Positions 136 to 21,856 of a DNA stretch of 58,843 bases are shown piece after piece. The stretch comes from Kofleriaceae bacterium (GTDB lineage Bacteria; Myxococcota_A; Polyangia; Haliangiales; Haliangiaceae), in contig JAGPCO010000032.1 in assembly GCA_018058095.1 (NCBI GenBank), positions 3,459 to 62,301 on the forward strand, read 5' to 3'. The notes under the pieces are model-generated. The model saw only the letters and a program-made list of their open reading frames with translations, searched no databases and had not been told where the DNA came from. Position 1 is the stretch's first letter, and every line of letters starts with the position of its first letter. A program made the translations under genes and the position numbers.

Positions 136-2093
<1,958 letters not shown>

Positions 2094-2097
<4 letters not shown>

Positions 2098-2639
2098 GGC
2101 GCCGGCCGGTTCCACGCCACCGGCGCCAACCCGAACGCGCGCCGGCCGGCCCGGGTCATGAGGTACTTGAGCTGGAACACCGGCAGGAGCGCGACCACCT
2201 CGATGACCAGGGCGGCGCCGATCAGCGCGAAGGTCGAGGCGGCGCGGCCGAGCGCGCCGTACACCCCGGCCAGGTAGGCGGCCGAGACCAGGATGCGGGC
2301 GATCAGCACGATGGCCGCCAGCAGCAGCGCGCCGGCGGCGCCGGCGGATAGCCACCAGCCGACCCGCCGGCCGAGCAGCGCGCCGACCCCCATCAGCGCC
2401 GCCAGCACCGGCAGCGCCAGCAGGTGGGCCTGGGCCAGCGGCAGCCGGTTGGGCACCAGCCACACCACGCTCACGAAGTAGATGGTGGCCAGGACGAGAT
2501 CGAGCCCGCCGTAGATCCATCGGCGTGGGTCCGGGCGACGCGGGCTGACCGCGGCGGCGGGGACGACGGCCGGTGGTGAGGGCGGGGCCGACGCGGCGGC
2601 GGGAGGCTCGGCGGAGGGCACGGCGCGAACGTACCGCAC
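2094..2639 (-). CDS. hypothetical four-TM membrane protein
   Basis: A 181-aa protein with a Pro/Ala-rich cytoplasmic-looking N-terminus (about 45 residues). About four hydrophobic segments follow: YGGLDLVLATIYFVSVVWLV, LLALPVLAALMGVGALLG, AGALLLAAIVLIARILVSAA and ALIGAALVIEVVALLPVF. The GTG start is the first in frame after the divergent intergenic region. It is the first gene of a two-gene unit with the barrel-domain protein, overlapping by four bases. No family is recognised. A role in anchoring or exporting its partner is only an inference. Confidence 0.7.
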
Positions 2640-2733
2640 GGATCCACCAGGACCAGCCGCCGGGGCCTACATCGGCGCCGGCGCTGGCCGACCCAGCCAG
2701 GTAGAAAGCAGCCCCGGCGCGCGGCCGGTTTGC

Positions 2734-2739
2734 TATCGT
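2734..2739 (+). promoter_or_regulatory. candidate -10 element (TATCGT) of a leaderless promoter
   Basis: TATCGT lies six bases before the ATG at 2746. That spacing would put the transcript start at or next to the start codon. No good -35 box is visible. The same arrangement precedes several other genes in this window. Confidence 0.4.
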
Positions 2740-2745
2740 GAAACC

Positions 2746-3132
2746 ATGGATCCTCGTCCACCCCTTCGGCGCGAAGTCCAGGAGCCTGGCCCCGGCCCGG
2801 CCGCACGTGGCCTGGTCGCGGTCTCGGCCACGGCCATGATGCTGGCCTTGACCAGCTCGACCCTCCTGTTCTGGGCCAGCCTGCCCGGCGGGCGCGGCCC
2901 GAGCTGGCAGGCGACGGCCGAGCCGCTGGTGGTCAGCCCGTGGCCGGCGACCGGGCGCGCGGCGCCGCCGGCGGCGGTGGTCGCGCCCGCAGCGCCATGC
3001 CGCCAGGTCCCGGCGCGATCGCTGGCGCCAGCACCGGCGCAATGCGGCGCGCCGGTGTACCGCAGCCTGGGTGACGGGCGGACCGAGGTCGAGTTCGAGG
3101 CCTGCGCCGGCGTCCACGCCGACCGGCGCTGA
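2746..3132 (+). CDS. small single-pass membrane protein, unknown function
   Basis: A 128-aa protein with one hydrophobic segment at about residues 22-45 (GLVAVSATAMMLALTSSTLL). A Pro/Ala-rich region and a short C-terminal part with three Cys follow (PCRQVP, QCGAPVY, FEACAG). The ATG is preceded by a -10-like TATCGT at the leaderless spacing, which supports this start. It converges on the TIG/metzincin lipoprotein gene, with a strong hairpin between the two. No family is recognised, and it is small enough that its reality needs expression data. Confidence 0.55.
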   Translation: MDPRPPLRREVQEPGPGPAARGLVAVSATAMMLALTSSTLLFWASLPGGRGPSWQATAEPLVVSPWPATGRAAPPAAVVAPAAPCRQVPARSLAPAPAQCGAPVYRSLGDGRTEVEFEACAGVHADRR

Positions 3133-3139
3133 GCCGGCG

Positions 3140-3170
3140 CTAGCGGGCTGCTTCTTCAGCAGCCTGCTAG
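3140..3170. terminator. hairpin between convergent genes (13-bp stem)
   Basis: CTAGCGGGCTGCT at 3140-3152 and AGCAGCCTGCTAG at 3158-3170 pair over 13 bases with one G-T wobble around a 5-base loop. It lies between two convergent genes and overlaps the TAG stop (3167-3169) of the minus-strand one. No U-run follows on either side, so classical rho-independent action is uncertain. It could act on both transcripts. Confidence 0.6.
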
Positions 3171-5119
3171 TAGCAGGGCGGCCGGGTCAGGTCGGGCGGC
3201 GGGTCGCTGCTGGGCAGGATCATGCGCAGGTACGCATACTCCTCGTCGCAGAACACGCCCGGGCCCAGGCCCATCAGCTCGGCCCGCTCGAGGAACGGCC
3301 GATCGCCGCCGCTGTCCATCAGCCGGTTCGGCTCGTCGCCGTTGTTGTGGAAGCCCTCGGCGTTGGGGTTGGCCAGGCCGAGGGAGTGGCCGATCTCGTG
3401 CGCCAGCGTGCCGCCGATGAGGTTGCCGAGCACGAACACCGCGCAGTCCATCTGCGCGCCGCGATCGTCACTCGCGGCCGGGCAGGTGTCGCCGCTGCCA
3501 AGCGCGCGCACCGCGCCGGGGGAGTCGCTGCTGCTGATGGCGCGGCCGTCGCGATCGGACCGGAACGGATCGAAGATCTTGTCGAACTCCGGATCCGCGC
3601 CTGGCACCTGCATGGCCCAGCGGCCGGGGTCGAGCGAGAAGCCCATGAGGGACTCGACGAACACCCCGCCGAACCCCGGGTAGCCGTCCTGCTGGGTCGC
3701 GGCGTTGACGCCGCCGAGGCGGTCGTACAGGCGGACGTTGTTGTCGTCCTTGCCGGGCGTGTTGTCGTAGCCGAACAGGCCCTGCCCGTTCGGATCGGTG
3801 CCGTGCAGCTCGACGTGCGAGAACAGCGCGTAGTCGTCCGGCGCGCTGGTGCGGAACTCCATGTTGACGCCCTGGTAGGCCCGATCGACCACGGCCAGGA
3901 CCCGCTCGCGCACCTTGCTGTCGACCGCGCGCAGCCCGAACGCGCGCAGGCTCTCGACGTAGGTCGGCCGGAAGTCGAGGAACACGACCTGCCGGACCGG
4001 GGCGATGGAGAAGCTGGCGCTCAGGCCGACCCCGGTGACCCGATCGCCGCCGTACTCGACGATCGGGGTGATCGTGCCGGAGAACGTGCCGGTGTCGACC
4101 CGCAGGTCGATCAGCTGACCGATCGCGTCCTGCTCGCTCAGGACGTAGCGGACGCGGTTGCCGGCGGTGAACTCGGGGATCAGGGTCAGGCTGACCGGGG
4201 CCGGCATGGGCGCGCCGGTGGCCTGGAACGTGCCGACCAGATCGAGCTCGGTGATGGCGCCGGCCTCGCCGCCGACGAAGCCGCCGCCCTCGATCACGAC
4301 GTACTGGCCCAGGCTGACCGCGGTCGGGGTGACCCGGGTGATCTGCGACTCGATCAGGTCGTAGCTCACGCTGACCGGGCTGGCCTGCGGCGCCGGCCCG
4401 CCCTGGTGGCGGTTGATGACCGTCACGTCACCGGTGAAGGTGCCGGGCCGGATGCCGGCGATGGCCGGCTTGAACGGGAAGCTGGCCTGGCGGCGCGAGA
4501 ACGGCGTGCGCGGCCGCAGCGGCACCTCGACCGGGGCGACCGGGTCACACGCGCCGCCGCCCTGGGGCGTGAAGCAGCCGGTGACGCGGGCCACCGACTC
4601 GCCCTCGTCACCGCCGAGCAGGAAGCCGTCGCCCTCGATCTCGACCTGGTCGTTGACGAACAGCAGGGTGCCCGACGGCACGGCGATGACCTCCGGAGTC
4701 AGGCTGCGGACGAAGCGCAGGTCGACCCCGAGGTTGTTCGACACGTAGGTGTCGCCATCGACGGCCGACACCACCTCCAGCGCCAGCTCGCCCTCGGCCC
4801 GCGCGCCGTCGCCGATCTCGTCGATCATGTCGGCGCTGACGTCGACCACCATGTGCTCGAAGTCGACGAACCGGGCCGGCCACACCACCTCGACGTCGGC
4901 GCCCGACAGCCGGATCGACGCCTCGCCCCACTGCGGCCCGACGAACGAGCTCCCGCTCAGGGTCAGGGCCGTGCCGGGCACGATCACGTCCGGGCTGACC
5001 GCGCTCACCGCCAGGTTCTCCAGGCCGACGTCGACCGGGCTGGACGTCGCGCAGCCGACCGCCCCGGCCAGCAGCAGCAGGACCGGGGGGCGGCGGACGA
5101 GTGAGCCCACGCGCGCCAT
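3167..5119 (-). CDS. secreted TIG-domain lipoprotein with a metzincin-like zinc site
   Basis: A 650-aa protein. The signal peptide ends in a lipobox-like AVGC (Cys23), so it is likely a lipoprotein. The N-terminal half holds several IPT/TIG-type Ig domains (SPDVIVPGTALTLSGSSF is a typical TIG opening; similar units near residues 105 and 205). The C-terminal part has HEIGHSLGLAN at residues 574-584 and a following RLMDSG that fits a Met-turn, the layout of a zinc metallopeptidase of the HExxHxxGxxH/D class. The third-ligand position is Asn584 rather than His or Asp; His591 (GFHNNGDE) is a nearby alternative. The ATG overlaps the stop of the upstream lipoprotein gene by one base (TGATG), so the two are co-translated and probably work together at the cell surface. 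Confidence 0.85.
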   Translation of the reverse strand: MARVGSLVRRPPVLLLLAGAVGCATSSPVDVGLENLAVSAVSPDVIVPGTALTLSGSSFVGPQWGEASIRLSGADVEVVWPARFVDFEHMVVDVSADMIDEIGDGARAEGELALEVVSAVDGDTYVSNNLGVDLRFVRSLTPEVIAVPSGTLLFVNDQVEIEGDGFLLGGDEGESVARVTGCFTPQGGGACDPVAPVEVPLRPRTPFSRRQASFPFKPAIAGIRPGTFTGDVTVINRHQGGPAPQASPVSVSYDLIESQITRVTPTAVSLGQYVVIEGGGFVGGEAGAITELDLVGTFQATGAPMPAPVSLTLIPEFTAGNRVRYVLSEQDAIGQLIDLRVDTGTFSGTITPIVEYGGDRVTGVGLSASFSIAPVRQVVFLDFRPTYVESLRAFGLRAVDSKVRERVLAVVDRAYQGVNMEFRTSAPDDYALFSHVELHGTDPNGQGLFGYDNTPGKDDNNVRLYDRLGGVNAATQQDGYPGFGGVFVESLMGFSLDPGRWAMQVPGADPEFDKIFDPFRSDRDGRAISSSDSPGAVRALGSGDTCPAASDDRGAQMDCAVFVLGNLIGGTLAHEIGHSLGLANPNAEGFHNNGDEPNRLMDSGGDRPFLERAELMGLGPGVFCDEEYAYLRMILPSSDPPPDLTRPPCY

Positions 5120-7212
5120 CACTGCACCGTGATGGTGATGTCGTAGTCGTCGTTGCGGGCGCCGTTCCAGCCGACCACCTGCACGTAGTAGTTGCAGCTG
5201 CCGCCGCACGAGGCCGGGATGACGTACTCGGCGTGTTCGTCGGCGTCGACGCCCTGCCCGTTGGCGGTGTCGCACAGGAACGGGTCGTCGAACGAGCACG
5301 GCGTGGTGTCGACCCCGGCCGGATCGAGCAGGTGCAGGTCGAGGTCCTGCGCGGCCGAGGCCTGCGCGAAGTCGAGGTCGACGATGATGCGGTCGCCGGC
5401 CGAGACCGGGACCCGGTAGGTGTCGGCGTCGTTGGGGCAGATCTTGTTCATGGTCGAGGTGATCGGCAGCGCCGTGGTCCGGGCCTGGCTGCTGGTGTCG
5501 TCGTCCTCCTGCCCGTCGTCGACGCAGGCGGCGCAGGTCTCGGCGGTGCGGCTCCAGGTCAGGTTGTAGTCGTTCTCGATGAAGTCCCACGAGTAGACCC
5601 GGAAGTAGTAGGTCCCGGCCGGCTGGCAGGTGGTGATCATCTCGTCGGGCTGCAGGCTGGTCGAGGTCGACACGCGCGAGCCGTCGGGCTTGTACACGCC
5701 GAGGTCGAGGTCGGACGCGGCGCCGCCGTCGATGGCCACGTTGATGCGGGCGCTGGCCGCCAGGTCGATCCGGAACCAGTCCTCGTCGTCGTCGGTCCCG
5801 CCCGAGGCCGGGCAGCTGGTGAAGTCGTAGCTGCCGGGCGCCAGGGCCGGCTGGGCCTGGGCCTGGGCCCGGGTGTCGTTCTGCTCGTAGCTGTCGTCGA
5901 CACACACGCCGCCGCCGGTGCACGAGCCGGCGTTGGGCACACACTGGCGCGCGCTGGCGCCGCCGACCGACGTCACCGGCGAGCTGCTGCAGGTGTAGCC
6001 GGCCGGGCACGACCCGGTGGTGCAGGCCTCGAGGCAGTACGGGATCTGGGCCGCGCCGACGCGGACGCACAGGTCGCCGCTGCCACACTGGATGTCGGCC
6101 GAGCACGACTCGCACAGGCCGGCGTTGCCGGTGCCACCCGGGTTGGTCACCGTCATCTGGAAGTTGCTGCTCTGGGTCACGTGATCGCAGTTGCCGACCT
6201 CGTCGTCGTCGTCGTCGGCGACGATCACGTAGTACAGCTCGGCCATGCTGCCGGCGCCGCCGCCGACCGCGGGGTTGGGCACGTCGGCGGCCCAGGTCCC
6301 GTCCTGCATGCTGCCATCGATCAGCAGCATCGACACCTGGGTCATCGCCCCGAGGTCGGGGTCGGCGGCGATGGGCGAGGTCGAGTAGTACAGGAGCGGC
6401 GGCTGCTTGAGGCCCTTGTCGTCGGTGACCCGGGCGTCGAGGGTGAGATCGACCAGGGTGGTCGCGTCGCTGGCCGAGTGCAGGATGACCGGGGCCGCGC
6501 CGGGGCAGTTGGTGCCGATGTCACCGCGCAGCACCACCAGGTAGTTCTTGATGGTCTTGGGGTTGCTCTGGTCATCGGCCGACAGCGACAGCGTGTAGCG
6601 GTCCTCGGCCTCGGCCTGGGCCCGGGTCGGGCACCAGCGCCAGGCCGAGGTCAGACCGGAGGTCTCCTCGAGGGTCGCGCCCTCGATGATCGGCTCCTCC
6701 TGGGCGATGACCACCGAGGCCGAGTCCTGATCCTCGACGATGATGTCGAGGTCGAGGCACTCGTCGCGGGTCAGGTCGAGGGTGGTGCCGGTGCCGAGCG
6801 GCGACCGGAACAGCGGCGCGCTGTCGGACCCGGTGGCCGAACGCACGTCGATGCGCACCGTGACCGTGACCTCGTCGCCGCCGTCGGACGCGGTGAAGTC
6901 GAAGAACCACTCGCCGACGTCGGCCGCCTGCGGGGTCCACTGGAACACGCCGTAGCCGGCCGGCGACTTGGTCAGGGTGGCGCGGGCGTCGATGTCGGCC
7001 ACCTCGGCGGTGTACGAGTAGTCGATGTCGTCGCCGTCCTGATCGGTCGCGCGCAGCTCGATCACCAGCTGGTCGCCGACCGCCACGACCTGGTCGTCGA
7101 TGGCCGCCAGCTCGGGGGCCGACCCACCACAGGCTAGGGCGGTAGCCAGGCAGGTCACCACGATCATGGTCCGGGCCAGGCCCAGGGCACGCCGATCTTG
7201 TCCGAAACGCAT
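5119..7212 (-). CDS. secreted lipoprotein with Ig-like and two PPC-type domains
   Basis: A 697-aa protein with an N-terminal signal ending ALAC (Cys28), so probably lipid-anchored. Order: a cadherin/He_PIG-like Ig domain (FQWTPQAADVGEWFFDFTAS), further beta domains, a Cys-rich linker at about 430-490 (CESCSADIQCGSGDLC and similar), then two bacterial pre-peptidase C-terminal (PPC) domains. Typical openings are CVDDSYEQNDT and CVDDGQEDDD, with DEDWFRIDL and DADTYRVPV cores. PPC domains usually accompany secreted peptidases. Here no peptidase domain is present, but the coupled downstream gene encodes one. The start was chosen because GGAGGA lies six bases before this ATG; an open frame continues upstream without such a site. 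Confidence 0.85.
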   Translation of the reverse strand: MRFGQDRRALGLARTMIVVTCLATALACGGSAPELAAIDDQVVAVGDQLVIELRATDQDGDDIDYSYTAEVADIDARATLTKSPAGYGVFQWTPQAADVGEWFFDFTASDGGDEVTVTVRIDVRSATGSDSAPLFRSPLGTGTTLDLTRDECLDLDIIVEDQDSASVVIAQEEPIIEGATLEETSGLTSAWRWCPTRAQAEAEDRYTLSLSADDQSNPKTIKNYLVVLRGDIGTNCPGAAPVILHSASDATTLVDLTLDARVTDDKGLKQPPLLYYSTSPIAADPDLGAMTQVSMLLIDGSMQDGTWAADVPNPAVGGGAGSMAELYYVIVADDDDDEVGNCDHVTQSSNFQMTVTNPGGTGNAGLCESCSADIQCGSGDLCVRVGAAQIPYCLEACTTGSCPAGYTCSSSPVTSVGGASARQCVPNAGSCTGGGVCVDDSYEQNDTRAQAQAQPALAPGSYDFTSCPASGGTDDDEDWFRIDLAASARINVAIDGGAASDLDLGVYKPDGSRVSTSTSLQPDEMITTCQPAGTYYFRVYSWDFIENDYNLTWSRTAETCAACVDDGQEDDDTSSQARTTALPITSTMNKICPNDADTYRVPVSAGDRIIVDLDFAQASAAQDLDLHLLDPAGVDTTPCSFDDPFLCDTANGQGVDADEHAEYVIPASCGGSCNYYVQVVGWNGARNDDYDITITVQ

Positions 7213-7359
7213 GAGATTCCTCCGACCTAGGGGAGCCATCGTAGCAGGGCCCATCCCCGGGATGAGCAACAAACGGGCCGAGCCGACGTGGCCTGGATCA
7301 CCGCGTGGTCAGGGACCCGCGGGCGTGGCCGAGGAGTAACGATGCCCCCGGGGATGGAT

Positions 7360-10300
7360 CTACCCGACCAGCGCCGAGTGGTCCTCGCCGATGGCGAACT
7401 GGACCAGATCGGCGGCGTCGGGGTGATCCAGCGCGGCGGCGGGACCACCGTGGATACCGGCCTGGCCGGCGATGGCGGCGAGGCCGGCCGCGAGCGAGCC
7501 CGACGCGACCAGGCCGGCCCGATACGCCGCTGCACGCAGGCCGGCGGCCAGGCCGGTCACCTCGAGGCTGCCGCCGTCGAGCGCCAGCGCATAGGGGCGG
7601 AGAGCGTTCATCAGGCCCGACGGGATCAGCCGGCGCAGCTTCTGGACCTGGGTCGCGACCGCGTCGTCGGCCGCGCCCCGGCTCGGGAAGTCGGGCTGGA
7701 ACAGGCGGGCCATCGCCACCACCAGCACGGCCAGCTCGTCGGGCGGGAGGCGGAGCGGGATGGACAAGGACGCGCGCGCCAGCACCAGGGCCCCGCCGGC
7801 GGCGAAGCGGACCGCGCTGGCGCCGAGCTTGGCCAGCTCGGCGCCGATCACCAGCGACGGTGGGCTGGTCGGCTCGGCGATCATGACCCACGGCTGCCGT
7901 GGCGACAGGTAGACGTCGAGATCGCCGACCCCGAGGCCGTCGGCGACCTGGGCCGCGGTGGCGGCGATGGGGCTGTCCTTGGCGCGCAGGCGGTCGCCGC
8001 GGGTCGCGCCGTACGGGCGGAGATCGACGCCGACGTGCTTGGCCAGGCGGTCGCCGAGCTGGGCGAAGATCTGGCGCAGCTCGGTCGGGACGGCGCGCGG
8101 GTACAGCAGCTCGGTGTGCTCGGGCCGGGTCAGGCCGGCCGGCGCCAGCGTCGGCTGCGAGGTGAGGATCGAGCGCTCGCGATCCTCGGCGCCGCCGGTG
8201 ATCACCGCCAGCTCGGCCGCGGCCCGCGCCAGCTGGGCGCTGCCGGCCACGCCGGCGTCGGCGCGCGCGACCATGACCCGGGACAGCACCCGCGCCGCCG
8301 CGCCGTCGCGCAGGTCGGCGGCGATCCGCGCCCGCATCATGCCGGCGACCCGGTTGAGGTGGACCCGGACCGAGGTCACGTCGCGCACGTCCTGGTAGAA
8401 GCGGATGAGCGCGGTCAGGGCCTGGTCGTTGGTGGGCGCGCCGTCGAGGGCGACGTTGAGCGCGCGCTCGGCCCGGCGCCGGTCGCCCAGGCCGTCGGCG
8501 AACACCCGCGCCACCCGGTGCAGGTGGCGGACCCGCCGATCCGGATCGGCCTCGATCTTGATGAGCCGCTCGCACGCGCCCAGCGCCAGCTTCCACTCGC
8601 CGGTGGCGATGGCCAGCTCGGCCAGCCGATCGAGCGCGGCGTCGTCGTCGGGGTTGTAGCTGAGCGCCTTCTGGAACGCCTTGATGGCGATGCCCGGATC
8701 CGGGATCCGCTCGGCGTAGATGAGCCCGAGGCGGAAGAACAGGGTGCGCAGCAGCTGCGGATCGCGCTCGAGCTTGGCCCGGGCCATGAGCGCCTCGGCC
8801 GCCTCGGCCCACGCGCCCTGCTCCCAGCAGATGTCCGACACCGCGGCGATGGCCCGCACGTCGTGGCCGTCGATCTCGAGGATGGCCTGGTAGTGCCGCT
8901 TGGCGGTGTCGCGGTCGGACAGGAAGTTGCGGTGCAGCTCGGCCACCGCGCGATGCAGGGCGACCCGCTGGTCGACGTCGGTCTCGACGTCGAGCCGCTG
9001 CGACAGCAGGGCGGCGAGGTCGTCGTGGTTGGCGTCTTCCTCGAGCAGGATGCGGGTGCGCACGAAGGCGTCGCGGTGGGCCGGCTCGGCCGTCAGCGCC
9101 ACCCGCAGCGCCGCCAGCGCGCGGTCACCGTCGAGCGCCCGGTCCATCAGCGCGACCGCGGCGAGGTGGGCCAGGCGCGCGCGTGCGGCCGGGCCGGCCT
9201 GCTGCCCCGCCTCGGCCAGCGCCGCCTCGGCGACGTCGACCCACAGCTGCCCGCGCAGGGCGGCCCAGCGCCAGCCCGCCAGCGCCGGGACGTGCCCGGG
9301 GACCCGGGCCACCGCGTCCTTGAAGGCGGCGATGGCGCCGTCGAGATCGCCGATCTCGGTCAGGGTCTCGCCGGCGCGAGTCAAGAACGCCGCCGACGCG
9401 CCCGGGTCGGCCGCGTGCAGGTCGGCGATGGCCCGCTCGAGCGCGGCCAGCTCGCGGCTGGCGCCAGCGCGGCGCACCAGCGACTCGAGGTGGAACAGGG
9501 CCACGCGCTGGCCGGGTTCGCGCTCGACCACCGCCTGGTACACCGCGCGCAGCTCGGAATCGGCCAGGCCGGCCCGCTCGCTCAGCCCGGCCTGATCGAG
9601 GCCGAGCGCGACCAGGTCGGCCGGCGCGGCCGGCGTCGCCTGGGCCGCCGCCTCGAGCCGACGCAGCCGGGCCAGCTCGGCCCAGCGCGGGCTCGGCCCG
9701 GCCAGGTGCGCGCGCTCGAGGGCGCGGATGGCGGCCAGGCGGTGCGGATCGGCCGTGACCGCCGCCTCCCACGACACCACGGCGGAGCCGAGATCCGCGC
9801 GCAGCTCGGCGTCGACGTCGCCCAGGCGCTCGTACGCCTCGGCCACCGCGCGCTGGTCGGCCCGCGCCTCGGCGGTGCGCAGCTCGGCCAGGGCGATCGC
9901 GGCGACCGCCGCCGCCTCGCGCCCGTGGCGGGCGATGCGCAGCAGCGGCTGCTCGGCGATCGGGTCCTGCGGGCGCAGCGTGAGGGCCTTGCCGAGCAGC
10001 ACGCTGGCGGCGGCGCCGTCGCCGCGTGCGGCCGCCAGCTCGGCGTCGCGCACCAGGCGGGCGAACGCGTCGGGGCCGGCGGTGCTGGCTGGCGCCGCGG
10101 TGCGCGCCGCGACCTCGTCGAGATCACCCAGGCGGCGTCGCGCCGCGGTGGCCAGATCGTGGGCGACGGCGAGGCCCGGCTGCGCCTCGAGGACCTGGCC
10201 GAGCAGCTGCACCGCGCGCGCCGCCTCGTCGGCGACCAGCCACAGCGCGGCGGCGCGATAGCGCTGCGCCACGACCTCGGTGGCGCGCCCGGGACGGCCG

Positions 10301-13300
10301 GCCAGGGCCTCGGCCCGCTCGCCCAGCGCCGCCGCCAGGATCTGCGGCCGGCGCGTCCGCGCCGCCCACTCGGCGGCCAGGGCCAGGCGGCGCGGGTCCT
10401 CGCTGCCGCCGGCCAGGCTGGTCAGCTCCTCGAGCAGCTCGTCGACCCGCGCCGGATCGGTCGCGGGCGCGGCGATGGCGGCCCGGATCCGGGCCCGGGC
10501 CAGGGCCCGCGCCCGCGCCGGCTCGCGCTCGACCGCGAGGGCGCGGCCGAGCACGTCGAGCAGGACGTCGGCGTCGGCCAGCCCATCGGCCAGGGTCAGG
10601 CACGCGGCGTGCGCCTCCGCGTCCTCCGGATCACGCTCGATCACCCGGCCCCAGGCCTCGAGCGCGGCGACGATCATCGACCCGGCGTCGGCGCCGCTCT
10701 CGAGCTCGATGACCGCGTCGTGGCTGGCGCGCGCCGCCCGGGCCAGGGCCAGGCCGAGCGCGGCCTCGTCGGCGCCGGCCGCGACCTCGGCCCACAGCGC
10801 GGCCCGGGCCTGCCAGCGGCCGGCCGCGGCCAGGATGTCGGCCCGCGCCTCGACCGAGGCGTCGCCCACGCCGAGCGTTCGCGCGGGGGCGCCGCCGGGC
10901 GCCGACACCAGCAGCGCCAGGGCGGCGTCGACGTCGCCGGTGGCGGCCAGCCCGAGGGCCGCGCGCACGGCGGGGCGGGCCCGGGTTGGGTCGGCCGCGA
11001 CCGCGGCGACGTCGAGCGCGAGCGAGCGCTCGGCGTTGCCCTCGGCCACCAGCGCGCCGCGCCGCTGCGCCGCCGCGTACTCATCATCGGGATCGGCGGC
11101 GGCGGCCAGCTCCCACGCCGCGGCCGAGCCGCCGGCGAGCTCGGCCGCGACCACGGCGGCGTGGGCCCGCAGCGCCGGGCGCGCGTCGCTCCCGGCCAGG
11201 CGGGCGAAAGCCGCGGCCATGCCGTCGGTCGAGTTGCTGTCGCCGTTCAGGCGGGCCGCCAGGGTCGCCACCACCGGCTCGCTCGGCAGCGCGGCGCTGG
11301 CGACGGCGAGCGCGGCGGCGCGCTGCGCCGGGTCGGCGCCGTGGCGCTCGGCGCGGACGGCCAGGCCGCCCGCCAGCGTCGGCGTGGCGGCGGCGGCGGC
11401 CTGCGCCAGCGTGAGCAGCGCGGCGTGCGGCGTGGGCGCGGTCCGGACCAGCCCGAGCCAGGCCACCGCGCCGGCGCTGACGCCGTGCTGGAAACACTCG
11501 GCCGCGGCCGGACGATCGCCGCGGTGCTCGGCCAGGTGGCCCCGCGCGACCGCGACCGACGCCCGCAGCGGGGAGTCGGGCAGCGCGGCGGCGAGGCGAT
11601 CGAGCGCGTCGGCGAACTCGTCGGCCCGCCCGTCGAGGAAGGCCAGCTCGAGGTGGGCCAGGAGGCCGCGCACGTCCGACGGCGCGCCGTCGAGCAGCTC
11701 GCCCACGGCGACGCGCGCCAGGTCCTGCTCGGCGCCGGCCATGAGCAGGTCGACCCGGGCCAGCGCGAGCGGGCGCCGCTCCAGGCTGCCGGCCAGGCTC
11801 AGCTCGGCGTCGAGGTGGGTGGTGACCTCGGCCAGGTCGCCGACGGCGCGCGCGACCCGACGCAGGCCGTGCAGCGCCGGCAGGCAGCGCGGGTTGGCGA
11901 TGAGCGCCGCCTCGTAGTGGCCGCGCGCGCGCTCGGGGTCACCCAGGCGCTCGGCCAGGCGACCGGCCTCGGCCCGCAGCGCCGCCGCGGTGTGGGTGTC
12001 GTCGACGGCCTCCAGCTCGCGCTCGTAGATCATCAGACGATCGGCGACCGCGTCGTCGGTCTCGACCGGCCCGACCGGGCCCTGATCGGGCAGCACCAGC
12101 GCGTCGAGGTCGAGCGCGGGGTCGGGCAACTCGCGCGCGGCGTCGACGGTGGCGGTCGGCACCACCGGCGCCGGCGCGGCGGTGGCCGCCGCTGCGACGG
12201 TCCCCACCGCGTCGTCGGTGCCGGGGCCGGGGGCGGCGATCAGGGTCGGGCTCGTCGGCGCGGCCACCGCCGGCCCGAGCAGGGCCTCGAGCGGGACGCC
12301 CATCGGCGGCACCGAGGTCGGGGTCTTGACCCGGGCCGACAGCACCGCGCTGGCCGGCGCCGCCGGCACGGCGCCGGAGCCGGCCCCGGCTCCCGACCGG
12401 CTGGCCAGCGGCTCAGCGCGCGTCGCGTTGCCCGACGGTCGGCGCGGCCGGGCCTGGCCGGCCGGTCCGAGCACCGCGAACTCGTCGTCGATCCCCTCGG
12501 GGCCGATCTCCGTGCTGTCCTCGAACCCCGGCATGGCCTGGATCTCGGCGGCGTCGGAGTCCTGGTCCAGGTCGATCACGGGACGGCGCGCCTCGACCAG
12601 CTCGACCGGCCCGGTGGTGGCGGTCGAGGACGTCGGCTGGCTGGCCGGCTGGGCCAGGTCGGAGAAGTCGTCGAAGTTCAGCTCGGCCGGGGCCGCGCCG
12701 GTGGCGGCCGGCTCGTCGTCGGCCTCCATCTCGATGACCGGCCCGGCCTCGACCTCGGGGCCGAGCGGCGGCGGCCGGGTCGCGGCGGTGGCGCGGCGGA
12801 CGACGTGGACGGTGGTGCGGCGCGGCTCGGGAGCGCTCGGCGGCGGCGTGGTGATCGGCCCCGACCGCGTCGGCGCGACCGGGCTGGGCGCGGCGGCGCC
12901 GGCCTGGACCTCGATGTCGTCGTAGAACGCCTCGTCGAGGGTGAACTCGCTGGCCGGCGGCTCCTCGGCGAAGAACGCGGCGGCGCTCGCGGCCGACTGC
13001 GCCGCGGTCGGGCTGGCCACGGCGGTGGCCTCGACCAGGGCCGGGATCCCGCCGGCGGGGGTGACCCGGTCGGCCCGTGGATCGGGCCGGCGGACGATGG
13101 CCGGGCCGGTGCGGACCGGCGTGGGTGCCGGTGCGGGCGCGGGCGCCCGGCGCGACCGATCGACCAGCTCCGGGTCGAGCGAGGTCATCTTGGTCGGGCT
13201 CTCGGACGCGAAGTCGCCCGAGGCCGTCGACGACCGGGCCCGACGGGTCCGCACCTCCGCCGCCGGCACGGGCGCGGGTGGCGGCGCCAGATCGTCCTCG

Positions 13301-13938
13301 TCGCGGACGCCGTCGCGGCCGGCCACGGCCGGGCGTGAGGCCGAGGTGAACACGTCGTCGTCGAACGGGTTGGCGCCGAGCCCGGTCAGCGCGGTCGGGA
13401 CCCGGACCCGGACCGAGGTCGCGGCGTTGTCGTCGACCGCCGCGCTCGGTGCCGCCGACGGCATCAACGGGCTGGCGCCGAGCAGCTCGCCCAGGGCCTC
13501 CGGCGCGGCCAGGTCGAAGTCGTCGGCGACGGCGGTCCGGGTGACCGGGCGGGCCGGTCCGACCGGGCGCGGCCGCGACGTCGGCAGGCCGCGGTCGAGG
13601 GTGTGGACGTCGAGATCGACGGTGGGGCTGTCCTCGCCGAGGGCCGGTCCGGGCGCGACCACGTCGGCCGGATCGAACTCGGCCTCGAGGGTCGCGCCGC
13701 CACCATCATCGGCCTGGCCCAGGACCGGGTCGGCCGGGATCGCGGCCATGCCGAGGCGGGTCGGATCGTCGACGGCGGCGGATGGGTCGGCCTCGCCGGC
13801 GCGGCCGTCCTCGGCGCCGGACCGGCCATCGGCCTCGTGCAGGGCGTCGAACGTCGCGTCCCAGGCGTCGAGCTCGCGCAGCAGGTCGTCGTCGTCGCCG
13901 AGCGCGCCCAGCCCACCCTTCTTGGTCCCGTCGGTCAC
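7360..13938 (-). CDS. giant TPR-solenoid protein A with a shared C-terminal domain
   Basis: A 2,192-aa protein. Residues 1 to about 600 are low-complexity, acidic and Pro/Ala-rich with short acidic motifs (LGDDDDLLRELDAWDATFD, NPFDDDVFTSA), so probably disordered. About 600-1900 is a long run of TPR-like helical pairs with Ala-rich spacing (for example LGRALAVEREPARARALARA). The last 290 residues form a separate domain containing GVGDLDVYLSPRQPW and ALVLARASLSIPLRLPPDEL, clearly related to the end of the neighbouring giant protein. There is no signal peptide or TM segment, so it is probably cytoplasmic. The GTG start overlaps the upstream stop (GTGA), with GGAGGT six bases ahead. The function is unknown; a scaffold for a large protein assembly is the natural inference. 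Confidence 0.85.
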   Translation of the reverse strand: MTDGTKKGGLGALGDDDDLLRELDAWDATFDALHEADGRSGAEDGRAGEADPSAAVDDPTRLGMAAIPADPVLGQADDGGGATLEAEFDPADVVAPGPALGEDSPTVDLDVHTLDRGLPTSRPRPVGPARPVTRTAVADDFDLAAPEALGELLGASPLMPSAAPSAAVDDNAATSVRVRVPTALTGLGANPFDDDVFTSASRPAVAGRDGVRDEDDLAPPPAPVPAAEVRTRRARSSTASGDFASESPTKMTSLDPELVDRSRRAPAPAPAPTPVRTGPAIVRRPDPRADRVTPAGGIPALVEATAVASPTAAQSAASAAAFFAEEPPASEFTLDEAFYDDIEVQAGAAAPSPVAPTRSGPITTPPPSAPEPRRTTVHVVRRATAATRPPPLGPEVEAGPVIEMEADDEPAATGAAPAELNFDDFSDLAQPASQPTSSTATTGPVELVEARRPVIDLDQDSDAAEIQAMPGFEDSTEIGPEGIDDEFAVLGPAGQARPRRPSGNATRAEPLASRSGAGAGSGAVPAAPASAVLSARVKTPTSVPPMGVPLEALLGPAVAAPTSPTLIAAPGPGTDDAVGTVAAAATAAPAPVVPTATVDAARELPDPALDLDALVLPDQGPVGPVETDDAVADRLMIYERELEAVDDTHTAAALRAEAGRLAERLGDPERARGHYEAALIANPRCLPALHGLRRVARAVGDLAEVTTHLDAELSLAGSLERRPLALARVDLLMAGAEQDLARVAVGELLDGAPSDVRGLLAHLELAFLDGRADEFADALDRLAAALPDSPLRASVAVARGHLAEHRGDRPAAAECFQHGVSAGAVAWLGLVRTAPTPHAALLTLAQAAAAATPTLAGGLAVRAERHGADPAQRAAALAVASAALPSEPVVATLAARLNGDSNSTDGMAAAFARLAGSDARPALRAHAAVVAAELAGGSAAAWELAAAADPDDEYAAAQRRGALVAEGNAERSLALDVAAVAADPTRARPAVRAALGLAATGDVDAALALLVSAPGGAPARTLGVGDASVEARADILAAAGRWQARAALWAEVAAGADEAALGLALARAARASHDAVIELESGADAGSMIVAALEAWGRVIERDPEDAEAHAACLTLADGLADADVLLDVLGRALAVEREPARARALARARIRAAIAAPATDPARVDELLEELTSLAGGSEDPRRLALAAEWAARTRRPQILAAALGERAEALAGRPGRATEVVAQRYRAAALWLVADEAARAVQLLGQVLEAQPGLAVAHDLATAARRRLGDLDEVAARTAAPASTAGPDAFARLVRDAELAAARGDGAAASVLLGKALTLRPQDPIAEQPLLRIARHGREAAAVAAIALAELRTAEARADQRAVAEAYERLGDVDAELRADLGSAVVSWEAAVTADPHRLAAIRALERAHLAGPSPRWAELARLRRLEAAAQATPAAPADLVALGLDQAGLSERAGLADSELRAVYQAVVEREPGQRVALFHLESLVRRAGASRELAALERAIADLHAADPGASAAFLTRAGETLTEIGDLDGAIAAFKDAVARVPGHVPALAGWRWAALRGQLWVDVAEAALAEAGQQAGPAARARLAHLAAVALMDRALDGDRALAALRVALTAEPAHRDAFVRTRILLEEDANHDDLAALLSQRLDVETDVDQRVALHRAVAELHRNFLSDRDTAKRHYQAILEIDGHDVRAIAAVSDICWEQGAWAEAAEALMARAKLERDPQLLRTLFFRLGLIYAERIPDPGIAIKAFQKALSYNPDDDAALDRLAELAIATGEWKLALGACERLIKIEADPDRRVRHLHRVARVFADGLGDRRRAERALNVALDGAPTNDQALTALIRFYQDVRDVTSVRVHLNRVAGMMRARIAADLRDGAAARVLSRVMVARADAGVAGSAQLARAAAELAVITGGAEDRERSILTSQPTLAPAGLTRPEHTELLYPRAVPTELRQIFAQLGDRLAKHVGVDLRPYGATRGDRLRAKDSPIAATAAQVADGLGVGDLDVYLSPRQPWVMIAEPTSPPSLVIGAELAKLGASAVRFAAGGALVLARASLSIPLRLPPDELAVLVVAMARLFQPDFPSRGAADDAVATQVQKLRRLIPSGLMNALRPYALALDGGSLEVTGLAAGLRAAAYRAGLVASGSLAAGLAAIAGQAGIHGGPAAALDHPDAADLVQFAIGEDHSALVG

Positions 13939-16900
13939 GCGCCACCTCCGCGATCGGCGCCGAGCTCGTAGCCGAGCTCGTGCCGCAGGGCCAGGTGCGC
14001 CGCGCCGACCGACCAGGCGGTCAGCTCGAGCGCGAGCGGGCTGTCGACGACGGCGCGGCCGCCACGGCCGACATCGAGGTAGGCCAGCGCGATCGCCAGA
14101 TCGCCCACCGCGAGCAGGCCGAACCGGTTGCCGACCCCGGCGGCGTGGCGCCGGAACGCGGTGAGGTCGGCCGCGTCGATGGCGCGCGCCGCCGGCAGCG
14201 CCGCGAACGCCTTCTTGTCGCGCCGGCCCCAGTGCTTGTCGAGCAGCCGGACCCGTTCGTCGACGGGGTTGCGATCGGCGGCCGCGGCCTCGGCCAGGAT
14301 CGGCGGCACCGGCACCCCGGCCACCTGCAGCGCCGCCGCCCACATCCACAGCAGCTCGACGTCCTTGAGCTCGAGCAGCGGACCGGTCGCCTCCGCGGCC
14401 AGGACCAGGGCCCGGGCCAGCGCGAACCGGGCCGGGCCATGGTCGGCGCGGGCCACGTCCGCGCCCAGGCACAACGTCGGGGTGTCAGCCGCCAGCGCAC
14501 GCGCCACGCCGGCCCGGCCCTCGCTGACGTAGACGTCGAGATCTCCGAGGCCGAGCTGGCCGGCCAGCGCGGCGGCCAGGCCGAACTTCTCGCCCAGCTT
14601 CTTGAAGGCGACCCGATCGGCGCGGACGAAGCCGAGCTTGCCCGGCTCGAGCGCGAGCGCGGCGGTCACCGCCGGCGCCAGCGCGCGCCACAGCTCCCCG
14701 GTCGCGCCGAGGCGAGCGCCGTCCTGGCCGGGCCCGGCGGCGCCGATCAGGGCTCGCTGCGCCGGCGCCAGCGCCACCCGCTTGATGGCCGGCACGTGGG
14801 CCCGCCCGGCGGCGAGGACCGCGCGCTGCTCGGCCGACGGCGTGCCGAGCGCCTCGACGCCGGCGACGGCCAGCCAGCGGGCCTCGACGTCGCTCTGCCA
14901 GGCGGCGATGGTCGACAGGCGATCGTACAGCCCGACCTTGCCCGGGCCGGCGGCGATGGCCAGCCGCATCTCGTCGGCGGCGCTGGCCAGCAGCTGGGCG
15001 CGTGGCCCGGCCTCGAGCAGGTCGGCCAGCTCGCGGATGACCTCGAGGTTGAGCGGGTCGGCCTTGCGGCCGCGATCGAGGGCCAGCCGCGCCGCCGCCT
15101 TGTCGCGCACCTTGTCGCGCAGCACCGCGGCCAGGCGCAGCTCGTCACGGGCCCGCTCGGGCCCGCTGCCGCGCAGCCGGCCCATCTCGCGCAGGCTCGA
15201 CGCCACCCGCGTGAAGTCGCCGGCCCGGGTCGCCAGGCCGACCATCCGCTCGTGCAGGGCGAGGTCGTCCGGGCTGTGCTCGACCACCTTGGCCAGCTGC
15301 TCGACGGCGCCGGCCAGATCGCCGGTGTCCTCCGACAGGACCCGGGTCAGGGTCAGCTCGACCTCGGCCCGACGCTCGGCGCGGGGCTCGACCTCGACGT
15401 AGCGCCGCCACAGCGCCAGCGCCGTCGTGGTGTCACCCAGCTTGTGCGCCAGATCGGCGCGGAAGCGCAGCGCCTCACCGTTGCGCGCGTCCCGCCCGAG
15501 CAGATCGTCGAGGTCGGCGATGGCGCCGGCGTGATCGCCGATGCCGAAGGCCAGGGTGGCGCGCTCGAGCAGGATCGGCACCGCGGCCGGGCCGGCCGGG
15601 CCACCCTCGGCACCGAGCCAGGTCAGGCGATCGGACAGCGCGCCGTGCAGGCCGCCGACGTCGCTGGCCTGGCGCAGCAGCTCGGCGTAGCGGTTGAACT
15701 CGGCCGCGCCCGGGTCGGTCGCGAGCAGGCGACGGTAGGTCGCCATGGCCGCGGTGACGTCGGCCCCTGCCCCGCTGGCGGTGGCCGGTCGCGCGCCGGC
15801 GCGTGGCGCGGCGGCGGCGTCGAACACGGCGGCCGCCTCGCGCAGCAGGGCCAGGCGGTGGCCGGCGTCGCCGAGCAGGCAGGCCAGGCGGTAGGCGGCG
15901 CGGGCCGCGGTGCGGGTGTCGCCGCCCTTGCGGGCGAGCCGGCGCAGCGCCTCGAGCGCGCGCAGGTCGTCGCCGTCGGCGCGCAGCACGGCGGCCACGA
16001 CCTGCCCGGCCTCGCGCAGGCGGCCAGCGGCCTCGAGGGTCTCGGCCCGCTCGAGATCCCAGCTGGCCCGGCCGGCCTCGTCGGCCAGGTCGGCCCGCAT
16101 CGCCAGCACCTCGGCCCGCGCCAGCTGAGCGTCGACGTACGCCGACGGGTCGCGCGGATCGGGCTGGGCCACCACCGACGCCAGGTCGGCCGCGACCACG
16201 ACCGCGCCGACGTCATCGCTGGCGGCGCGGGCGGCCGCGACCTGGGTCACCACGCCGGCGCCATCACCGGCGGCCGCGGCCAGCGCCGCCGCCCGCAGGT
16301 GCAGGGCGGTCGCCGCCGCCGGCAGGCCGGCGCTGACGGCGAGCGCGCCGTAGGCGTGGGCCATGGCGGTCGGATCGCCACGCCGGGCCGCGACCAGCGC
16401 CGCCCCGAGCTGGCACCCCGGTCGGCTGGCGTCGATGGCCAGGGCCTGCGCGAACAGCTCGCCGGCGCGATCGGGATCCTCGAGGGTGAGCGCGGCGAAC
16501 CAGGCGGCGTCCTCGAGCAGGCTGCCGATCAGATCGGGCGCCTGGCCCCACGCCGCCAGCTGCTGGGTCATCTCCAGCCGCATCGCGCTGTCGCCGCTGG
16601 CCACCGCCAGCTCGACCAGGGCCAGCGCCGCCGCCTGGGCCGGCAGCCCGCCGTCGCCGGCGGTGACCAGGGCCCGGTAGGCGTCGACGGCGTCGTCGCG
16701 GCGACCGGCGCGCTCGAGCGCGAGGGCCAGCTCGAGCCGGGCCGCCGCCGCGTGTTCGGGCGCGGCCGCGTCGGCGATGCGCTCGAGGAACTCGACCGAC
16801 GCCGCCGGGTCGGCGCCGAGGGTCCGGACCAGGCCATCGAGCGCGGTGGCGTCGTCGGGCGCGCGGTCGAGCATGGCGCGCCACGCCGCCGCGGCCGCCG

Positions 16901-19900
16901 CTGGCTGGCCGAGCCGGACCTCGAGCACCCAGGCCGCCTCGCGCTGGGCCCGCCCCGCGGCCGCGCCGTCGGGGAGCGCCGCGGCCTCGCGTTGCCGCTC
17001 CTCCACCAGCTCGGCCCAGCGCTCGTCGGCGCGCAGCAGATCGACCAGCGAGGCGCGCGCGAAGGCGTCGTCGGGGTCGCGCCCGAGCACGAGCCGGTAC
17101 AGGCCGATCGCTTTGTCGACCTGGCCGATGCGCTCGAGCAGGCGGGCGGCGCTGGCGGCGGCGATGAGGCGCCGCTCCGGGCTGGGGTCGGACTCGGACA
17201 GGGCGACCAGGTGCTGGGCCCGCTCCTCGTCACGGCCGGCCTGGGCCAGCAGGCCTTCGATGCGCCAGCCGATGCGACCGTCGGGATCGCCGGCGACCGC
17301 GACCAGGCGCCGGTCGGCGTCGATCGCGCCATCGACGTCGCCGCGGCTGCGCCGCAGGTGGCCGAGGCGCTCGAGCGCGGCGCGCTGTTCGGGCGGCTGG
17401 CCGCGCTCGACGCGGGCCGCCAGCAGCCCGGCGGCGTCGTCGAGGCGACCGCTGGCCAGGGTGATGTCGAGCAGCGCCGCCAGCGCCGCCGCGTCGTCCG
17501 GCCGGAGCTCGAGCGCCTGCTGCAGCGCGGCCTCGGCCTCGGCGCGGCCGACGTCCCCGCCGACGTGGTGCGCCCACAGCTCGGCCGCGGCCACGTAGGA
17601 CGCGACCGCGGCGTCGGGGTCGGGCGCGAGGTCGGCGCCGCTCGCGCTCGGTCCGAGCACGGTGCCGAGCTTGTGGCTGTCGGCCGCGGCCAGGTACACG
17701 CGGGCCAGGTCGGCCGGATCACCCTGCTGGATCGCGTCGCGCTCGGCCAGCGCGGTCAACGCGACGAAGCCGCGGTGGCTGGCCTCGAGCGAGGCCAGGA
17801 GCGGGCGGGCCGCGTCGCGCTGCCCGCCGCGCAGGAGCGCGTCGACCCGGCGCAGCGACAGCGCCAGCCCGCGCCCCGGATCGGCCTCGATCGACTGCCA
17901 GCTCTCGACCAGCTCGGCCAGCTCGTCGTACCGGCCCAGCTCCTCGGCCAGCTCGATCAGGTCGGCCAGGAGGATGGGCTCGCCGGGGGCGACGGCCAGC
18001 GCCCGCTGCAGGTAGCCCCAGGCCTCGTCGGCCTGACCGCTGGCGCGGGCGACCTGGGCCTGACGCCGACGCACGGCGACCAGCTCGAGGCGAACCCGGG
18101 TGGACGGATCGGGCGGCTGGCCCGGGTCGCGCGCCAGCACCGCGACGCCGACGCCGGCCTCGCCGAAGCGAGCCTCGAGCGACGCGGCCCGGGCGTCGAG
18201 CGCGGCGCGCAGCGCGTCGGGCGCGTCGCCCAGCTCGGCCAGGCGGATCTGCTCGGCCACGACCCGATCGCGCTCGACCCCGAGCGCGCTGGCGCGAGCC
18301 ACCGCGTCCTGCGCCGGCGCGAACTCCCCGGCGTCGGCGTGGGCGCGCGCCAGGTCGAGCAGGTACAGGCAGCGGCGGACCGGATCGCCGGCGCACTCGG
18401 CCAGGCGGGCCCACACCTCGCGCAGCAGGCCGAGATCGCGATCGAGCTGGCCGATGCGCTCGAGCTCGAGCAGCGCGCCCTGGTGGCCCGGGTTGGCCTT
18501 GACCGCCTCCTCGAAGGCCTGCCGCGCCTCGGCCCGCTGCTCGAGGCGCTGGCCGACGACGCGCCCGCGCTCGACCCACAGCTCGGCGCGCTCGCCGTCG
18601 TCCTTGCACAGGCGCAGCTCGGCGTCGATCAGCTTGAGCAGGTTCGGCCACAGCGCGCGGCGGTAGAAGATGCGGCGGATGGCCCACAGGTTGGGCCGGT
18701 ACGACGGGTCGGCCGCCAGGGCGCGCCCGAACGCCTTGACCGCGCGCGCCTCGTCGGCCAGGCGGCGCTCGTACAGCTCGCCCAGCTCGTAGGCCAGCGC
18801 GGCCGCGGCGGGGCCGGTCGCCGCCTCCAGCTCGGCCGCGACCTCCTGGGCCCGCCGCTCGAGCGCGGCGTCGCCGGTGTCGGCCAGCGCCCGGTCGAGC
18901 ACGGTCGGGGTCTCGAGCTGGGTCTCGAGCGGGGTGTCGACCACCACCGTCGGGGTCTGCGTCGCCACCGCCAGGTCATCACCGCCGGCGCCAGGGCTGG
19001 CGCCGACCGGCTCGAGGTCGTCGACCTCGACCTCGACGGTGGAGGTGACGGCGGCGGCGGCGGCGACAGGCGCCGCTTCGTCGGCGACCAGGGCGATGGG
19101 CGCGGTGTGCAGGCGGGGCGACATCGACATCGCCACCGGCATGGCCATCAGCGACGACGCCGGCGCGTCGTCCTCGTCGGCGTCACGCCCCCGCTCGGCC
19201 ACGTCGAGCAGGTGGCTGGACGCGAGCGCCGCGGTGACCGCGGCGGCGGCGTCATCGGCCCCCGGTGGCTCGGCCGAGGCGCTCGCGAGCGGGCCGGCCG
19301 GCGTGGGCGACGGCGGCGACGCGGGCGTGGTCGGGCCCGGCGGCGGCAGCGGGGGGCGGCTCGAGGTCTTGGCCCGCGGCAGCGGCGGCACGGCCACGAC
19401 CGGGCGCCCCACCGGCGGCGCCGGCGGGATCCGCAGCGGTGGCAGCGGCGGCCGCAGCGGCGGCCGCACCGGCGGTCGCGCGACCGGGCGCGGCGCGGCC
19501 GGCACGTCGGCCTCGAGCTGCATGTCGTCGAGCTCGCTCAGCTCCTCGACCTCGCCCGACTCCTCGCGTGGAAGCGGGGCCGGCACCGACGCCGACGGCG
19601 CCAGCGGGGGGATGGCCACCACCAGGCGGCGGCCGGAGTCCGCCGCGGTGGTCGCGCCGGCGACCTCGACGGGCGCGGCCGGGACCGGCGCCGGCGGCGG
19701 TGGCGGTGGAGCGGCGGGCGCCGGCGCCTCGACGACCTGGCGCAGCGGCGGCACGGTGTCGCCGGCGCGCGCGCGCGCGACCTCGACGGCGACCGGCCGA
19801 TCGAACTCGACCTCGTCGACGTCCTCGTCGACGGCGACGCCGGCGGCGCCATCGGCGGTCAGGGCGAGCCGGGCGTCGACGCGGGCGGCCAGGCTGGAGA

Positions 19901-20087
19901 ACGGCGGCGGGCGGGTCTGCGACCGCAGCGGCTCGGGCGGCGCGACCAGCCCACCCTGCTCGGAGTCTGGACGCACCGGGGCCGCCGCCGCGGCGCCCTG
20001 GTCGCCCGCGGGCCGGCCGTCTTCAGAAGACTCGGGCGGCGTCCCCAACGTGCGGAAATCACAGCATCCGACGACCGTCCCTGTCAA
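13935..20087 (-). CDS. giant TPR-solenoid protein B, paralogue of protein A
   Basis: Up to 2,050 aa. It has the same plan as the downstream protein. About 370 low-complexity residues (Pro/Ala runs, PPPAPVPAAPVE-like) come first, then a very long TPR region (ELGELYERRLADEARAVKAF and FGRALAADPSYRPNLWAIRR are typical units). The C-terminal domain has GLGDLDVYVSEGRAGV and ALVLAAEATGPLLELKDVEL. No export signal is visible. The start is uncertain: the TTG at 20087 lies inside a TTGACA that may be a -35 box, so translation may begin at the in-frame GTG at 19976 (2,013 aa) or at the TTG near 20049. The stop overlaps the GTG of the second giant gene, so the two proteins are made together and may form a complex. 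Confidence 0.82.
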   Translation of the reverse strand: MTGTVVGCCDFRTLGTPPESSEDGRPAGDQGAAAAAPVRPDSEQGGLVAPPEPLRSQTRPPPFSSLAARVDARLALTADGAAGVAVDEDVDEVEFDRPVAVEVARARAGDTVPPLRQVVEAPAPAAPPPPPPAPVPAAPVEVAGATTAADSGRRLVVAIPPLAPSASVPAPLPREESGEVEELSELDDMQLEADVPAAPRPVARPPVRPPLRPPLPPLRIPPAPPVGRPVVAVPPLPRAKTSSRPPLPPPGPTTPASPPSPTPAGPLASASAEPPGADDAAAAVTAALASSHLLDVAERGRDADEDDAPASSLMAMPVAMSMSPRLHTAPIALVADEAAPVAAAAAVTSTVEVEVDDLEPVGASPGAGGDDLAVATQTPTVVVDTPLETQLETPTVLDRALADTGDAALERRAQEVAAELEAATGPAAAALAYELGELYERRLADEARAVKAFGRALAADPSYRPNLWAIRRIFYRRALWPNLLKLIDAELRLCKDDGERAELWVERGRVVGQRLEQRAEARQAFEEAVKANPGHQGALLELERIGQLDRDLGLLREVWARLAECAGDPVRRCLYLLDLARAHADAGEFAPAQDAVARASALGVERDRVVAEQIRLAELGDAPDALRAALDARAASLEARFGEAGVGVAVLARDPGQPPDPSTRVRLELVAVRRRQAQVARASGQADEAWGYLQRALAVAPGEPILLADLIELAEELGRYDELAELVESWQSIEADPGRGLALSLRRVDALLRGGQRDAARPLLASLEASHRGFVALTALAERDAIQQGDPADLARVYLAAADSHKLGTVLGPSASGADLAPDPDAAVASYVAAAELWAHHVGGDVGRAEAEAALQQALELRPDDAAALAALLDITLASGRLDDAAGLLAARVERGQPPEQRAALERLGHLRRSRGDVDGAIDADRRLVAVAGDPDGRIGWRIEGLLAQAGRDEERAQHLVALSESDPSPERRLIAAASAARLLERIGQVDKAIGLYRLVLGRDPDDAFARASLVDLLRADERWAELVEERQREAAALPDGAAAGRAQREAAWVLEVRLGQPAAAAAAWRAMLDRAPDDATALDGLVRTLGADPAASVEFLERIADAAAPEHAAAARLELALALERAGRRDDAVDAYRALVTAGDGGLPAQAAALALVELAVASGDSAMRLEMTQQLAAWGQAPDLIGSLLEDAAWFAALTLEDPDRAGELFAQALAIDASRPGCQLGAALVAARRGDPTAMAHAYGALAVSAGLPAAATALHLRAAALAAAAGDGAGVVTQVAAARAASDDVGAVVVAADLASVVAQPDPRDPSAYVDAQLARAEVLAMRADLADEAGRASWDLERAETLEAAGRLREAGQVVAAVLRADGDDLRALEALRRLARKGGDTRTAARAAYRLACLLGDAGHRLALLREAAAVFDAAAAPRAGARPATASGAGADVTAAMATYRRLLATDPGAAEFNRYAELLRQASDVGGLHGALSDRLTWLGAEGGPAGPAAVPILLERATLAFGIGDHAGAIADLDDLLGRDARNGEALRFRADLAHKLGDTTTALALWRRYVEVEPRAERRAEVELTLTRVLSEDTGDLAGAVEQLAKVVEHSPDDLALHERMVGLATRAGDFTRVASSLREMGRLRGSGPERARDELRLAAVLRDKVRDKAAARLALDRGRKADPLNLEVIRELADLLEAGPRAQLLASAADEMRLAIAAGPGKVGLYDRLSTIAAWQSDVEARWLAVAGVEALGTPSAEQRAVLAAGRAHVPAIKRVALAPAQRALIGAAGPGQDGARLGATGELWRALAPAVTAALALEPGKLGFVRADRVAFKKLGEKFGLAAALAGQLGLGDLDVYVSEGRAGVARALAADTPTLCLGADVARADHGPARFALARALVLAAEATGPLLELKDVELLWMWAAALQVAGVPVPPILAEAAAADRNPVDERVRLLDKHWGRRDKKAFAALPAARAIDAADLTAFRRHAAGVGNRFGLLAVGDLAIALAYLDVGRGGRAVVDSPLALELTAWSVGAAHLALRHELGYELGADRGGGA
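20058..20087 (-). promoter_or_regulatory. candidate sigma-70-type promoter for the giant TPR operon
   Basis: On the minus strand TTGACA (20087-20082) is followed by 18 bases and TGTGAT (20063-20058), a perfect -35 with a 4/6 -10. Transcription would start near 20051, downstream of the TTG that opens the longest reading frame. If the promoter is real, protein B starts later. Confidence 0.4.

Positions 20088-20317: not shown

Positions 20318-21856
<1,539 letters not shown>

Follow-up and report, generated by a model that had tools for sequence, protein, structure and literature searches.

A conserved pair of giant TPR proteins ending in degenerate M48-type domains suggests a two-part intracellular scaffold in Myxococcota

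Myxobacteria have large, socially complex genomes with many giant proteins to which no role has been assigned. The window we investigated, the whole analysed stretch of 58,843 nucleotides from the 7.57 Mb draft genome of a Kofleriaceae bacterium, contains two neighbouring genes (A and B) for giant TPR proteins that resemble each other at their C-termini. The locus raises the question of what the shared C-terminal domain (CTD) is and where it comes from, and whether the two proteins belong together.

Two overlapping genes with a common plan

Genes A (13935..20087; 2,050 aa when counted from its first TTG) and B (7360..13938; 2,192 aa from a GTG) both lie on the minus strand, as do all their features given below, and are defined by their open reading frames and a strong coding signal (GC3 of 0.93-0.95 versus GC2 of 0.56-0.59). 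Plus-strand reading frames of similar size were dismissed as GC-driven shadows. The real start of gene A is probably the TTG at 20048, as judged from homologous N-termini, which read LGTPPES here and LGSPPED or LGAPPED in relatives. The GTG of B lies on the stop codon of A in a 4-bp overlap (13935..13938) that we read as translational coupling, and the description of A and B as coupled giant neighbours in the initial annotation stands.

The two proteins were also said to follow one plan, and this is what we find: an acidic, low-complexity N-terminus, Pfam-supported TPR-type repeats and a related CTD. The N-termini are rich in Pro, Ser, Thr and Gly, with a net charge of -28 over residues 1-400 of A and -48 over residues 1-600 of B. 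An export-like hydrophobic N-terminus was found in neither protein, and a transmembrane-grade hydrophobic segment is absent from both (maximum Kyte-Doolittle-19 of 1.7); in agreement with their earlier description as cytoplasmic-looking, A and B are predicted to be cytoplasmic. The TPR-type regions extend over residues of about 503-1638 in A (15174..18581) and about 657-1806 in B (8521..11970), where TPR_8, TPR_19, TPR_14 and TPR_2 exceed the Pfam cut-off in A, and TPR_2, TPR_1 and TPR_19 in B. The repeats are degenerate, and a 34-residue period is not significant in a simple test. A weak match of B to the Pfam family fvmX3 (E 0.41) was taken as noise.

Near the start of B is a short motif, DLLRELDAWDATFDALHE (13834..13887), with the pattern D/E-W-x-x-x-L-x-x-W-D, which recurs in B-type proteins of other families. 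Its strict form is present in about half of 17 B-type N-termini and looser forms are visible in others; it is missing from the B-type proteins of the two f35 genomes. Conserved within an otherwise disordered tail, the motif is likely a docking peptide.

The C-terminal domain and its relation to M48 peptidases

A blastp comparison aligns A and B at their 3' ends only (E 4e-10, 26% over 353 aa), in a segment that includes GLGDLDVYVS in A, GVGDLDVYLS in B and the ALVLA block; outside the CTD, no similarity between the two proteins was detectable. The domain comprises about 260 residues and is located at residues 1768-2050 of A (13938..14786) and 1934-2192 of B (7363..8139). At least one CTD is encoded in 182 of the 285 Myxococcota genomes of a spread sample, and this recurrence places the sequence block shared by A and B far beyond chance. 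No Pfam or NCBIfam model covers the CTD (family sets of 29 and 48 members), PDB sequence searches with CTD profiles returned no CTD relative, and a description of the family was not found in full-text literature searches.

AlphaFold2 was given the last 363 residues of B with 29 homologues and the A CTD alone with 48 homologues. Both models are confident (pLDDT of 91.7 for B and 91.4 for the A CTD) and have the same order of elements in the CTD: helices, a three-strand meander (EEE), a helix, and more helices. Together with the blastp match, the common predicted fold bears out the claim that the two CTDs are related. The B model, which includes the last TPR helices, retrieved mainly TPR matches in Foldseek and was not informative on the CTD; for this reason the A CTD was modelled alone. 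In a VIA-align search with this model, nearly all 42 rows were metallopeptidases of the gluzincin type. The M48 structures among them were 3c37 (Z 6.8; 170 residues, rmsd 5.5), BepA (Z 6.6) and ZMPSTE24 (Z 4.7), and other gluzincins included M56 BlaR1 (Z 6.5) and M1 PepN (Z 5.0); M3, M32, MATCAP and selecase were further neighbours. These scores are modest, with every Z below 8 and Foldseek E-values above 1. The fold assignment therefore leans on the uniformity of the neighbour list and on a profile-profile match, and the sequence was tested independently of the structure. On both lines, the CTD is predicted to have a gluzincin fold.

Searched against the host genome, the CTD profile finds seven strong matches and then small M48 proteins that carry HExxH (on contig C222 with E 3e-4 and 5e-4, and more weakly on C186, C217, C11 and C191); the same small M48 proteins were found separately by PF01435. 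In hhalign, the CTD profile matched 24 M48 sequences from this and related genomes with a probability of 96.1% (E 3.3e-9, 148 columns), whereas reversed and column-shuffled controls did not exceed 0.4%. The alignment places the ALVLA block on the HExxH helix of M48 and NRxGLL on the M48 helix with (A)DRxGLL. By these matches, the CTD is homologous to the M48 peptidases.

The catalytic residues of M48 have been lost from the domain. The helix of A at the position of the HExxH helix, GPARFALARALVLAA (14394..14438), retains no ligand residue, and its counterpart in B is VRFAAGGALVLARA (7774..7821). HExxH occurs in none of 91 distinct CTDs; in the aligned columns, Arg has mostly taken the place of the first His, Ala that of the Glu, and Leu that of the second His. 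The third-ligand column, which falls in a loosely aligned helix, holds Glu in 20 of the 91, Arg in 18, and other residues elsewhere, and across the 91 the third-ligand Glu and the AD that follows it are not kept as a ligand set. No member of the family sets of 29 and 48 reaches the gathering score of PF01435. Since none of the 91 CTDs retains HExxH, we infer that the CTD is a pseudoprotease domain, catalytically dead for want of these residues; judged by sequence, A and B are functionally not M48 peptidases. The initial annotation knew of no named family for the C-terminal block, and none exists in Pfam or NCBIfam; however, what is new is an unrecognised degenerate branch of M48, and not a new fold.

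An alternative explanation is that the CTD is an enzyme that has built a new active site on the gluzincin fold, using conserved Arg and Asp residues (such as those of GxxRxDRL and the Arg of RAGLL). A few charged residues are indeed strongly conserved in B-type CTDs (R126, K138, R151, D153, R154, R249 and R311 in the numbering of the CTD model), and the Arg of NRxGLL is conserved throughout the family. However, in the family as a whole just three columns come close to invariance, a small number for an active site, and we consider a new enzyme quite improbable.

Distribution of the domain and conservation of the pair

The host genome encodes seven CTD copies: A, B, a protein on contig C14, and ORFs of 1,653, 2,241, 2,876 and 4,028 aa. 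The CTD is therefore not confined to the A-B pair, and the notion of a speciality of two proteins was not borne out. Given the 4,028- and 2,876-aa ORFs, A and B are also surpassed in size within their own family, which qualifies the expectation that they would be among the largest proteins in the cell. The protein on C14 (1967-4705) is a DUF4388 protein of 912 aa that ends in the pseudo-M48 CTD, an instance of the domain being reused on other architectures. A lineage of about 3,300-4,000 aa with the same CTD is found on contig C68 of the host (L113/L114) and at loci L127, L128 and L130, in several Myxococcota families. In a narrower-set contig search, nearly all of the 22 loci were in myxobacterial or deltaproteobacterial records, and the close homologues come from records labelled Kofleriaceae or Myxococcales/Deltaproteobacteria MAGs. 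Plasmid and phage searches gave no match to the CTD family.

A 2,119-aa ORF on contig C11 with an intact M48 motif was considered as an active ancestor of A and B and rejected, as it is a helicase-type protein. At 675-10975 of this contig, beside a BrxC gene, lies the gene for a 2,088-aa protein in which an HExxH M48 domain at the N-terminus is joined to a superfamily-1-like helicase. PADLOC matches the M48-helicase protein to PDC-S37 and Hhe, and it may possibly be a BREX-linked defence protein.

The A-B pair itself is strictly conserved in its order. In all 17 loci dissected in detail, an A-type gene is immediately upstream of a B-type gene on the same strand; the overlap is exactly 4 bp in 12 of the 17 homologous pairs and the spacing lies between -2 and 14 in the rest. 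Among 20 further B-type loci, A is directly upstream in all 19 that could be tested; in the twentieth the contig breaks off. This gives 36 loci with A before B (17 + 19), usually with the 4-bp overlap, and 23 genomes in the list of the 285-genome survey have A-B-like spacing. Wherever the region upstream of B could be read, the two genes are thus found together throughout Myxococcota, which answers for these loci a check proposed at the outset.

In a tree of 36 A-type and 36 B-type CTDs, the two types form separate groups, with 2 label changes as compared to 24.3 in shuffles, a split that by sequence is one between two ancient clades. The main B clade and the larger of two groups formed by A branch along the same groups of genomes. 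The adjacency of the genes and the matching branching of the two clades together show that the pair is ancient and was inherited jointly. The duplication, which the initial annotation took for a tandem one, is ancient and not local, and no similarity remains outside the CTD that would point to a duplication of whole genes.

The surroundings of the pair are much less constant. Downstream of B, a gene whose product is predicted to be a lipoprotein carrying Ig-like and PPC domains (5119..7272, minus strand) is probably co-transcribed with B; such a gene follows B in 8 genomes of the taxonomic order and its closest relatives, and in seven genomes a second predicted lipoprotein gene comes next. Conservation of these lipoprotein genes is limited to the order and those relatives. 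Upstream of A is a HutH-like aromatic amino acid lyase (20318-21856), homologues of which lie close to A and B in five genomes. Other families have different neighbours, namely a kinase with an M19 dipeptidase, ATP-synthase-type subunits with a rotamase, or a penicillin-binding protein; urocanase is also among the neighbours that vary between families. Only the A-B adjacency persists between families, and as the other neighbours differ, the genomic context does not name a pathway. PADLOC gave no match for A or B, and a role of the pair in defence is thus without support. Elsewhere in the window, a three-domain LigD (phosphoesterase, ligase and primase-polymerase; 30685-33408) implies bacterial end joining.

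One could assume that A and B are TPR proteins of the ordinary kind, that the C-terminus they share is no more than a helical domain capping the solenoid, and that their pairing reflects an old operon without a joint complex. TPR-rich proteins are common, and the neighbours vary widely, as this would lead one to expect. However, the CTD contains a beta-meander and aligns with M48 over 148 columns, and it is the adjacency of A and B that survives between families while other neighbours do not; this explanation is therefore unlikely. A second possibility is that the CTDs are regulatory pseudo-peptidases that bind or sequester the substrates of the small M48 peptidases active in the cell, or form heterodimers with these peptidases, so that A and B would regulate proteolysis and not serve as a general scaffold. 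The host genome has several HExxH-bearing M48 proteins to which the CTD profile aligns in register, and the TPR domain of BepA serves to bring substrates to its M48 domain (PMC7950410). Nevertheless, no M48 gene was recognised among the examined neighbours of the pair, and we doubt that A and B regulate proteolysis as much as we doubt the ordinary operon.

A proposed scaffold and its relation to known systems

The explanation we favour, and hold to be rather probable, is that A and B each supply one half of a heteromeric TPR scaffold that lies in the cytoplasm and is capped by pseudo-M48 domains. Each half would begin with an acidic disordered tail, continue as a long TPR-type solenoid and end in a cap descended from an M48-type zinc peptidase, whose dead cleft may have been retained as a surface for binding proteins or peptides or for dimerisation. 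Coupling of the genes would yield A and B in equal amounts, and the two may pair through their CTDs, the TPR superhelix, or both. Client proteins might dock on the TPR arms and on the W..L..WD motif at the N-terminus of B, and the disordered tails might also collect clients. BepA provides a precedent for a TPR domain and an M48 domain acting together to recognise substrates. The two-part idea of the initial annotation is strengthened by the depth of the A and B clades, whereas the scaffold function is still something we infer.

The joint retention of the two genes, in a constant order, throughout the myxobacterial phylum suggests a two-part intracellular scaffold that has not been described so far, and the A-B pair belongs, as one conserved unit, to a larger family. 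More tentatively, and with less confidence than we have in the scaffold itself, this family may represent an intracellular organising system found across the phylum Myxococcota, in which a set of giant TPR proteins (some seven in the present genome, with lengths of 900 to more than 4,000 aa) use dead M48 domains as connector modules and the A-B heteropair forms the conserved core. As the CTD marks the whole family, unnamed TPR proteins become one testable family; with a traceable origin from a dead M48 domain and an obligatory operon pair, it would be a large bacterial case of evolution from protease to scaffold.

The closest known relatives are the M48 peptidases (PF01435), in particular the small myxobacterial proteins with VIGHE(L/V)GH and CDRAGLL or ADRAGLL. 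They are similar to the CTD in sequence register and in the predicted order of the fold, with three strands, the active-site helix, and a later helix with (A)DRxGLL; however, the CTD lacks the set of HExxH and third ligand (91 CTDs) and has no Pfam M48 match. YfcM and domain I of lethal factor, which we take to be pseudo-gluzincin domains, are gluzincin-like neighbours of the A CTD with low Z scores (2.4 to 4.3) and unrelated architecture. PrsT, PilW and Tgl are similar in the TPR region only, and A and B score far below their curated cut-offs; these are small lipoproteins or periplasmic proteins, unlike A and B. BepA/YfgC, the structural match with Z 6.6, also combines a gluzincin domain with TPRs. 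It is a periplasmic and active enzyme with an N-terminal M48 domain followed by 4 C-terminal TPR motifs (PMC7950410), whereas in A and B the order of the domains is reversed, the proteins exceed 2,000 aa and are predicted to be cytoplasmic, and the peptidase site appears to be dead.
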